A stretch of 64,000 nt of DNA from the NCBI RefSeq assembly GCF_002082015.1, contig NZ_CP015109.1, positions 3,005,001 through 3,069,000 on the forward strand, written 5' to 3'. A model generated the notes under the pieces. The model ran no database searches and was not told where the DNA came from. It saw only the letters and a program-made list of their open reading frames with translations. Source of the DNA: Sporosarcina ureae (GTDB taxonomy: Bacteria > Bacillota > Bacilli > Bacillales_A > Planococcaceae). Positions 20,650-29,422 of the stretch are shown here, piece after piece. Within the stretch, counting starts at the first letter, position 1. Each line of letters starts with the position of its first letter. Both the position numbers and the translations under genes were made by a program.

Positions 20650-20670
20650 ATATCGTCTGATGTCTCTAAG

Positions 20671-20707
20671 ACTGTCCTTCACACTTAAGTTGTGAAGGGC
20701 AGTTTTT
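20671..20707 (+). terminator. Intrinsic terminator after sigG
   Basis: A 13-bp stem, 20671-20683 with 20691-20703, one U-G wobble, 7-base loop CTTAAGT, then TTTTT. It ends the sigE-sigG transcript. Confidence 0.88.
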
Positions 20708-20802: not shown

Positions 20803-20823
20803 CGAACCCTAAGCTCCATATGC

Positions 20824-20969
20824 AAGCGCTCATACAATTCATCTAAGTGATCATAGTAGCGGCACACCCGCTCATTAATTACCGCAAGCGATCATTGTCA
20901 ACGGGTGAACGCTCTTGAACAGCATGTAAGCGCTCATACTTGCTCTATAACCGCTCATCAAGCTATAAA
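20824..20969 (+). repeat. Array of seven CGCTCAT-like motifs at 21-bp period
   Basis: Seven copies of a 10-base motif, consensus A-A-S-C-G-M-T-C-A-T, start at 20824, 20845, 20866, 20886, 20907, 20928 and 20949. The steps are 21, 21, 20, 21, 21 and 21 bases. Copies read AAGCGCTCAT, AAGTGATCAT, ACCCGCTCAT, AAGCGATCAT, GAACGCTCTT, AAGCGCTCAT and AACCGCTCAT. The 11 bases between motifs are not conserved. A decayed eighth unit may begin at 20970. Two helical turns per unit put all motifs on one face of the helix. No coding sense is apparent. Confidence 0.85.
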
Positions 20970-24579: not shown

Positions 24580-24820
24580 TGAAAAAGAAGCGTTGAAGGA
24601 AAGAGTACTTTCTAATTTCACCTATAGCGAGCCAGGGGCGGTGTAAGCCTGGTGGTAAATCAGAAACGAAAATCACTCCTGAGCTAGAACCTTTATGTAA
24701 ATCTAGGTTCTCGGTCTCACACTGCCGTTATTAGTGTCTAAGCGGCAATTGCTATATGCAATTGCAAGTAGGGTGGTACCGCGAGAACAAACCTCGTCCC
24801 TTTTTGGGATGGGGTTTTTT
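24580..24820 (+). promoter_or_regulatory. T-box riboswitch (Ile) controlling ileS
   Basis: A tRNA-sensing leader. Stem I elements include the GAGTA bulge motif near 24603-24607 and the specifier loop GAAAATCAC with ATC (Ile) at 24672-24674. The conserved T-box sequence AGGGTGGTACCGCG is at 24770-24783. The terminator hairpin is 24791-24800 with 24806-24815 (10 bp with two G-U wobbles), then a U-tract. Uncharged tRNA-Ile would pair with TGG in the T-box bulge and form the antiterminator. The specifier matches the gene downstream. Confidence 0.95.
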
Positions 24821-29267: not shown

Positions 29268-29290
29268 CTATTAAGCAATTGAATAGCGAT

Positions 29291-29422
29291 ACCTTTAACG
29301 TCAGTCCTGTGAGGCTGGGAAGGTTGCACGGAATTACATGATAGCTTACTGCGGTAAGCATCGATGTATGCTTTTTTCTGCACATCTGCCCTCCAGTCTA
29401 CTCTGACTGGAGGGCTTTTTTT
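29291..29422 (+). promoter_or_regulatory. PyrR-responsive attenuator of the pyr operon
   Basis: The PyrR-binding loop CAGTCCTGTGAGGCTGGGAAGG (core AGTCCTGTGAGGCT at about 29303-29316) is closed by ACCTT/AAGGT and forms the anti-antiterminator at 29291-29325. The terminator is an 11-bp perfect stem GCCCTCCAGTC / GACTGGAGGGC (29388-29398 with 29405-29415) followed by seven T residues. An additional 6-bp hairpin with T-tract lies at 29356-29376. With UMP bound, PyrR stabilises the first loop, so the terminator forms. Confidence 0.93.

Follow-up and report, generated by a model that had tools for sequence, protein, structure and literature searches.

Dispersed intergenic arrays of a motif in 21-bp phase on a Sporosarcina chromosome

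R6K gamma, of a Rep_3 plasmid, carries seven 22-bp iterons with the string TGAGnG. Operators of the LytTR and AraC/XylS types are built from asymmetric half-sites ~21 bp apart, usually two at a promoter, and the Chi sequence of Bacillus subtilis is AGCGG. STAR elements of staphylococci are 14-bp repeats, T(G/A/T)TGTTG(G/T)GGCCC(C/A), whose copies are separated by 40 bp or more; they occupy different loci in each species, and the authors saw no sign of frequent exchange between loci (PMC3532100). For RemA, AT-rich repeats at promoters are described, with 7 protected bp at 3-bp intervals, a region of 107–159 bp that is required at one promoter, and one variant of the protein that makes 7- and 14-mers (PMC8481266). 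For the element described below we found no published description in the literature searched.

The array at the studied locus and its family in the genome

Within the window (the whole 64,000-nucleotide stretch of Sporosarcina ureae DNA that was analyzed, positions 3005001–3069000 of the genome), seven motifs start at positions 20824, 20845, 20866, 20886, 20907, 20928 and 20949, giving steps of 21, 21, 20, 21, 21 and 21 bp, exactly as a sequence-only reading had reported. In the order of these starts the 10-mers are AAGCGCTCAT, AAGTGATCAT, ACCCGCTCAT, AAGCGATCAT, GAACGCTCTT, AAGCGCTCAT and AACCGCTCAT, although the minus strand gives the better reading of the unit, WWDGAGCGSWTR followed by ~9 free bases (Table 1). 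The array lies 3′ of a terminator-like hairpin and ~190–220 bp ahead of the next ORF, between genes that the sequence-only reading named sigG and ylmC. The closest relatives of the downstream ORF are encoded on contigs of organisms that point to the genus Sporosarcina, in the vicinity of S. ureae. Using a matrix built from the other 51 arrays of the genome, with this array left out, its minus-strand chain scored 66.9, compared with a top score of 18.9 when the window was dinucleotide-shuffled 25 times and a maximum of 15.4 in the remainder of the window. A cruder test was weaker: TGAGCG pairs with at most two mismatches occurred at 9 places in the window, whereas shuffles averaged 3.8 and reached 9 in 1 of 100 cases. 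Tandem Repeats Finder did not report the array at a score of 30, and the spacers inside it are mutually unrelated, which agrees with the earlier statement that this is not a slipped microsatellite. Elsewhere in the window, a T-box leader (24584–24804) and a PyrR binding site (29288–29422) appear ordinary.

Table 1. Features of the studied locus, in window coordinates.
Feature	Position	Strand	Remark
Seven-unit array (12-base motif windows)	20823..20959	-	read from 20959 to 20823
Unit 1 GATGAGCGGTTA	20948..20959	-	
Unit 2 TATGAGCGCTTA	20927..20938	-	standard core here; GATC-type core in the other three strains (P32b, P2, DSM 2281)
Unit 3 CAAGAGCGTTCA	20906..20917	-	
Unit 4 AATGATCGCTTG	20885..20896	-	deviating core, kept in 4/4 array-bearing strains
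Unit 5 AATGAGCGGGTG	20865..20876	-	comes after the sole 20-bp step
Unit 6 TATGATCACTTA	20844..20855	-	deviating core, kept in 4/4 strains
Unit 7 TATGAGCGCTTG	20823..20834	-	
Terminator-like hairpin and T run, 3′ of upstream gene	20669..20707	+	by eye in the sequence; neighbour, outside the array

The sequence-only reading had suspected a dispersed family, and had made its case depend on a second array or on conservation in relatives; both are present. The chromosome of this soil bacterium (3.41 Mb, one contig) contains at least 52 intergenic arrays, and arrays also occur in relatives. The 52 arrays, obtained by merging the listed matches of a three-unit sequence model with pattern hits in stretches L073–L114, are a lower bound, as 150 of 899 candidates were scored and the matches taken were those listed. 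The three-unit model matched the genome 184 times, and TGAGCG pairs spaced 20–22 bp apart numbered 264, compared with 1 for a reversed-pattern control, although the TGAGCG pattern overlooks other dialects (in the relative G230 it found 15 pairs, compared with 146 hits of the model). Over ~930 units GAGCG is nearly invariant, GAGCGG is present in about half of the units, and the spacer columns carry low information (unit matrix ATTGAGCGGTTA). The claimed two-turn phase held throughout the genome, in that 779 of 842 decoded steps of 19–23 bp were 21 bp (with 52 of 20, 8 of 22 and 3 of 23 bp), as called by a decoder, used for this genome and G230, that gives 21-bp steps a mild bonus.

A decayed or small coding repeat was considered as an alternative. 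When read as GAG CGN, the units encode amphipathic heptads (IERLxxx, YERIxxx), some open for more than 100 codons, and frames of 60–309 codons overlap many arrays. However, GAG occurred 753 times and GAA 0 times, in-frame stops were at chance level (93 versus 103 expected, sd 8.9), only 3 of the 52 arrays were open throughout, and the 20-bp steps break the frame. We therefore reject this origin, which the sequence-only reading had named as fatal to its case and which we regard as extremely improbable, and we treated the overlapping frames as spurious.

The search for carriers elsewhere gave no counterpart. One long array had no blastn match in plasmid or phage records. The three-unit pattern did occur in 73 viral stretches, with 48 of 81 chains inside frames of more than 200 codons, and the 22 longest viral chains, when inspected, were coding-like repeats with near-identical spacers or microsatellites. 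On these results we reject carriage by phages or plasmids.

Conservation at the locus and across the family

Among 21 fetched relatives, the array at the studied locus was detected in three: P32b, P2 and S. ureae DSM 2281. In the four strains that bear it (including this genome), 33 of 35 core columns are invariant (pairwise identity 0.967), as are 34 of 49 outer motif columns (0.847) but only 16 of 53 spacer columns (0.587), with 11 of 60 invariant in the left flank (0.547) and 19 of 60 in the right (0.618). The difference between core and spacer is significant when columns are treated as independent (p = 7e-10). No other observation speaks as strongly for function as this conservation of cores over spacers, which comes from one locus. 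In strain P2 a CCCAAAC-type repeat run adjoins the orthologous array (L045).

Cooperative protein binding, predicted from the sequence, is our best reading of the array. With slightly better than even confidence, we propose that each array is a putative docking platform, itself non-coding, for a DNA-binding protein that recognises its sequence, formed by asymmetric head-to-tail motifs with a near-invariant GAGCG set two helical turns apart. One protein subunit would contact each motif on the same DNA face, and neighbouring subunits would touch, so that about seven would make one saturated complex; protein and motif would drift together, giving rise to lineage dialects. The phased asymmetric motifs, the preferred number, the conservation at one locus, and a geometry that stays constant while the letters change all fit a head-to-tail row of protein. 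Against the docking platform stand the detection of the array in just 3 of 21 fetched relatives, the derivation of per-site selection from a single locus, and the core of unit 2, which differs there between this genome and the other three.

The chief alternative is a dispersed minisatellite, selfish or neutral, which would spread by copying or gene conversion, grow by unequal exchange and owe the constancy of its motif to copying. We consider it unlikely, though by no means negligible. It does not readily explain why, at the studied locus, the four strains kept the cores while spacers and flanks diverged, with units 4 and 6 retaining their own variants.

The relative G230 (complete, one contig) made it possible to compare loci more widely. 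We picked 20 of its stretches from ~30 array positions, some of them for spacing like that of our genome, and 16 matched one of our array loci on both sides, with ~76–92% nucleotide identity (99% in rRNA parts); of the exceptions, L194 and L201 were unmapped, L211 mapped on one side, and L212 mapped via distant short segments. Exactly seven units were present in 9 of 21 decoded G230 arrays, and eight of these nine (among them L211, with its one-sided mapping) correspond to arrays of 7, 7, 11, 16, 17, 18, 35 and 38 units in our genome. The dialect is shifted, with A as the third motif base in 75% of G230 units versus T in 65% of ours. In two orthologous pairs the cores were identical at 31/35 and 34/35 positions and the spacers at 13/45 and 22/52. 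Because a non-orthologous pair used as the null, L093/L201, gave 27/35 for the core and 22/54 for the spacers, the orthologous pairs show retention of the arrays more than selection at individual sites, and the values of the null pair count against the docking platform. Between the species, array spacers were 29% and 42% identical in L076/L193 and L081/L196, whereas the adjoining flanks were 65% and 70% identical, which might reflect faster turnover or replacement of spacers. That these two pairs kept their arrays at the same loci despite such spacers weighs against the minisatellite.

Beyond these close relatives, at least one TGAGCG pair was found in 195 of 261 genomes of the family, many of them no higher than the reversed control. 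Pair counts in 68 genomes of the genus ranged from 0 to 658, a wide difference that suits a minisatellite and is odd for a vital function of a docking platform, though the pattern misses dialects. The three-unit pattern matched 13 of 348 genomes of the class, comprising 12 family members and G476, where the match is an 11-bp microsatellite, and the reversed control in that search also matched outside the family (G419, 7; G466, 5; G540, 4; G493, 1). The 21-bp period was constant across lineage-specific dialects, which included TTGAGCGAATTT, TGAGCGATAAATC, TTTGAGCGCG, CTATGAGCGCTT, GGTTGAGCGACTT and GTTGAGCGGTTT. A period of 21 with the core CCGCGAGTATT was seen in many arrays of genomes having a high reversed control; some GCGAGT arrays lie in long open frames (L289, 523 codons; L299, 312 codons), and the GCGAGT arrays need not all be the same element. 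With a cruder detector, units per array numbered 5–6 in g2, 4–5 in G067 and G073, 4–6 in G179, 6–20 in g8, and 7 and 14 in G198. Thus, seven is not universal, another point against the docking platform. Between genera, 2 of 16 stretches shared a flanking gene with one of our arrays, one of them with the array turned the opposite way, which by a rough estimate is about chance level.

Two further observations concern array structure in other genomes. The g2 arrays L119, L120, L121, L123 and L125 have an inverted motif in their first unit (5′ end), and these first units form or nearly form a hairpin, AGCGCTCATAGA-TTT-CTATGAGCGCT, ahead of the direct repeats. At G057:C1:1353292-1353633, about sixteen successive 21-bp units are almost identical (GCGAGTATTCCAACCCCTTCC); this array is homogenised, whereas the units in our genome diverge.

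Blocks, placement and flanks of the arrays

Exactly seven units (~146 bp) make up 12 of the 52 arrays, counting L073 after setting aside an isolated match 102 bp upstream. When all arrays were divided into blocks, 47 of the 121 blocks had seven units, 14 had eight and 10 had six. Many long arrays consist of ~7-unit blocks with linkers between them (for example, 7,7,7,7 in L107 and L111), and other long arrays run for 11–27 units without linkers. The 12 single arrays share position-specific features over units 1–6, amounting to 51.8 bits versus 45.8 after permutation (sd 0.93, maximum 49.0), and their spacers alone give 17.8 versus 13.8 bits (sd 0.87), with none of 500 permutations reaching either observed value. 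This likeness may reflect common descent rather than function. Array-to-array blastn returned 324 pairs, many of which may stem from the shared motif alone. Some arrays are nevertheless alike beyond the motif (for example, L083/L087, L078a/L078b and L105/L106), including some that face opposite ways, and the resemblance of several aligned pairs dies away towards the ends of the array; blocks have therefore probably been copied between loci. Both this likeness and the block amplification favour the minisatellite, whereas the single arrays, which hold seven units despite unrelated spacers, speak against it.

All 52 arrays lie between ORFs taken as flanking genes: 17 in convergent gaps, 18 in tandem gaps facing the opposite way, 11 in tandem gaps facing the same way and 6 in divergent gaps. 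The 73 array-free control gaps (120–700 bp, chosen with ORF criteria slightly stricter than those for arrays) comprised 10 convergent, 38 tandem and 25 divergent gaps, so that arrays show an excess in convergent gaps (p = 0.015) and a deficit in divergent ones (p = 0.006). Convergent gaps are where insertions do little harm, as the minisatellite would have it. Location near gene ends would also suit a transcribed RNA element, structured or protein-binding, as would folding z scores of -3 or lower in L073, L086, L101 and L105. The mean z was, however, just -0.43 and -0.49 on the two strands (52 arrays, range -3.6 to +3.2; first 280 bases of each array, 20 shuffles each), Rfam gave no match at the window array, and the flanking genes are oriented in mixed ways, leading us to reject structured RNA and to regard an RNA element of either kind as very unlikely.

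With respect to replication, 38 of the 52 arrays have GAGCG directed against the leading strand (p = 0.0012), taking dnaA at 1.955 Mb and assuming the terminus at the opposite point. This applies to 32 of 40 arrays of more than eight units versus 6 of 12 others, a difference of borderline significance (p = 0.063). Because the bias is carried by the arrays longer than eight units, it may be a bias of amplification, a point against the docking platform. Arrays farther from the origin tend to have fewer units (rho -0.34, p = 0.013). In G183, which belongs to the same genus and has another dialect (dnaA at 3.48 Mb), 12 of the listed right-arm arrays oppose the leading strand and 5 run with it, and no array falls between 0.85 and 2.57 Mb among the matches listed, which reach 2.57 Mb. 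The DnaA model used here also matched four equal-scoring frames of 243 amino acids (G000:C1 1158635, 1162177, 2306816 and 2831741), which are probably IstB-like transposon proteins.

Three of our arrays (L089, L095 and L096) come after 5S rRNA genes or rRNA operons. The draft genome G195 has six listed arrays no farther than ~320 bp from the start of a contig, which would be expected if arrays follow its rRNA operons too. No regulator gene recurs beside the arrays among the 40 of 103 listed flanking proteins that were compared with Pfam; these were mostly metabolic or without a family, with single cases of an HTH protein (L096), a CggR-like regulator (L086), a sigma-70 family protein (L112), SSB (L106) and a methylguanine-methyltransferase-type DNA-binding domain (L092).

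Given the excess in convergent gaps, the deficit in divergent ones and the mostly single replication orientation, the protein complex on a docking platform may, on weaker grounds, be chromosomal rather than gene-specific, and would then probably be an anchor or a polar nucleoprotein block where genes end. The cooperative contacts, the co-evolution and the chromosome-organising role are inferred.

The sequences around the arrays are also polarised. Mean GC skew is +0.51 in the 60 bp before an array and -0.36 after it, with spacers averaging +0.27 in the first half and ~0 in the second, and in 44 of the 52 arrays the skew has the expected sign both before and after. The pattern is invariant to reverse complementation, the strand that enters the array being G/T-rich on both sides; on average it holds in every gene-orientation class and, for the long arrays, in either replication orientation. 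It is absent from the 73 control gaps. Single strands that run inward once the DNA has been broken or resected would be a fitting cause, as expected of a recombination or break hot spot in which recurrent breaks or stalled forks, resection and repair copy blocks and leave inward G/T-rich strands. Such a hot spot draws further support from the presence of the gradient in G230, g2, G067, G073, G179 and G196, from the replication-orientation bias, and from Chi, AGCGG being contained in the GAGCGG of about half of the units (this is the B. subtilis sequence and may not be that of the genus). We nonetheless judge it improbable, since the gradient is weak in g8, lacking before G198 arrays and not seen at GCGAGT arrays, other dialects lack AGCGG, and the prevailing array orientation is opposite to that expected for Chi. 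Together, the orientation bias and the symmetric G/T-to-C/A gradient of the flanks hint at a role linked to replication or recombination.

A more far-reaching version of the docking platform is speculative, and we hold it to be doubtful as a whole: a family-specific chromosomal system in which a putative protein would form a seven-site complex (~146 bp, with two turns for each site) at dozens of loci where genes end, acting as a polar boundary for replication or transcription, the dialect of protein and motif drifting under a constant 21-bp geometry while collisions at the complex amplify blocks and give the flanks their symmetric G/T skew. If the docking reading holds, a bacterial family would possess an element that is abundant on the chromosome and follows a design rule that can be counted (seven sites, 21 bp), and its constant geometry with changing letters would make protein–DNA co-evolution measurable. 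Orthologous loci with seven versus many more units would offer natural length variants for tests of function, and the arrays would provide a defined case in which to ask why satellites in bacteria amplify in a single orientation to replication.

Comparison with described systems

The sequence-only reading had called the array iteron-like, which stands as a description of its layout but not of a plasmid replication system. The arrays share with R6K gamma the number, the period and the string TGAG.G, and they are phased asymmetric direct repeats within the 17–22 bp of Rep_3 iterons. Unlike those iterons, they are chromosomal, lie at dozens of loci of a one-contig 3.4-Mb genome rather than on a replicating plasmid, and, for the one long array compared, match no plasmid record; the Rep_3 initiator family (PF01051) had no match in this genome, and we reject this identity. 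PF01051 was found in 41 of 261 family genomes, including G224 (114 pairs), and had no match in the array-rich genomes G193, G194, G198, G210 and G216.

LytTR and AraC/XylS operators, compared by description, resemble the arrays in having asymmetric half-sites ~21 bp apart, and differ in having other sequences and usually two sites at a promoter. As in a cooperative multi-site operator, the motifs here are in helical phase and are conserved beyond the spacers, the conservation being that of one locus.

RemA offers a likeness in kind, a multi-subunit ring protein on periodic DNA repeats, with repeats of another type and a location at promoters (PMC8481266). We reject RemA itself, as PF04025 had 0 matches in this genome at E 0.001 and the B. 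subtilis control was positive. The missing matches for both Rep_3 and RemA-like candidates count against the docking platform.

Among named elements, STAR elements come closest in kind (PMC3532100). The arrays differ from them in their 21-bp phase, preferred seven-unit block, motif and dialects, in sharing loci with a related species and in showing likeness between loci; two defining features of STAR elements are lacking, as the 14-bp consensus is not matched by our unit matrix, and 779 steps of 21 bp leave no room for spacers of at least 40 bp. Like STAR elements, the arrays are dispersed intergenic direct repeats of variable copy number, with spacers particular to each locus, growth and shrinkage of the repeat at a given locus, very different copy numbers between species and, in both cases, no assigned function (PMC3532100).
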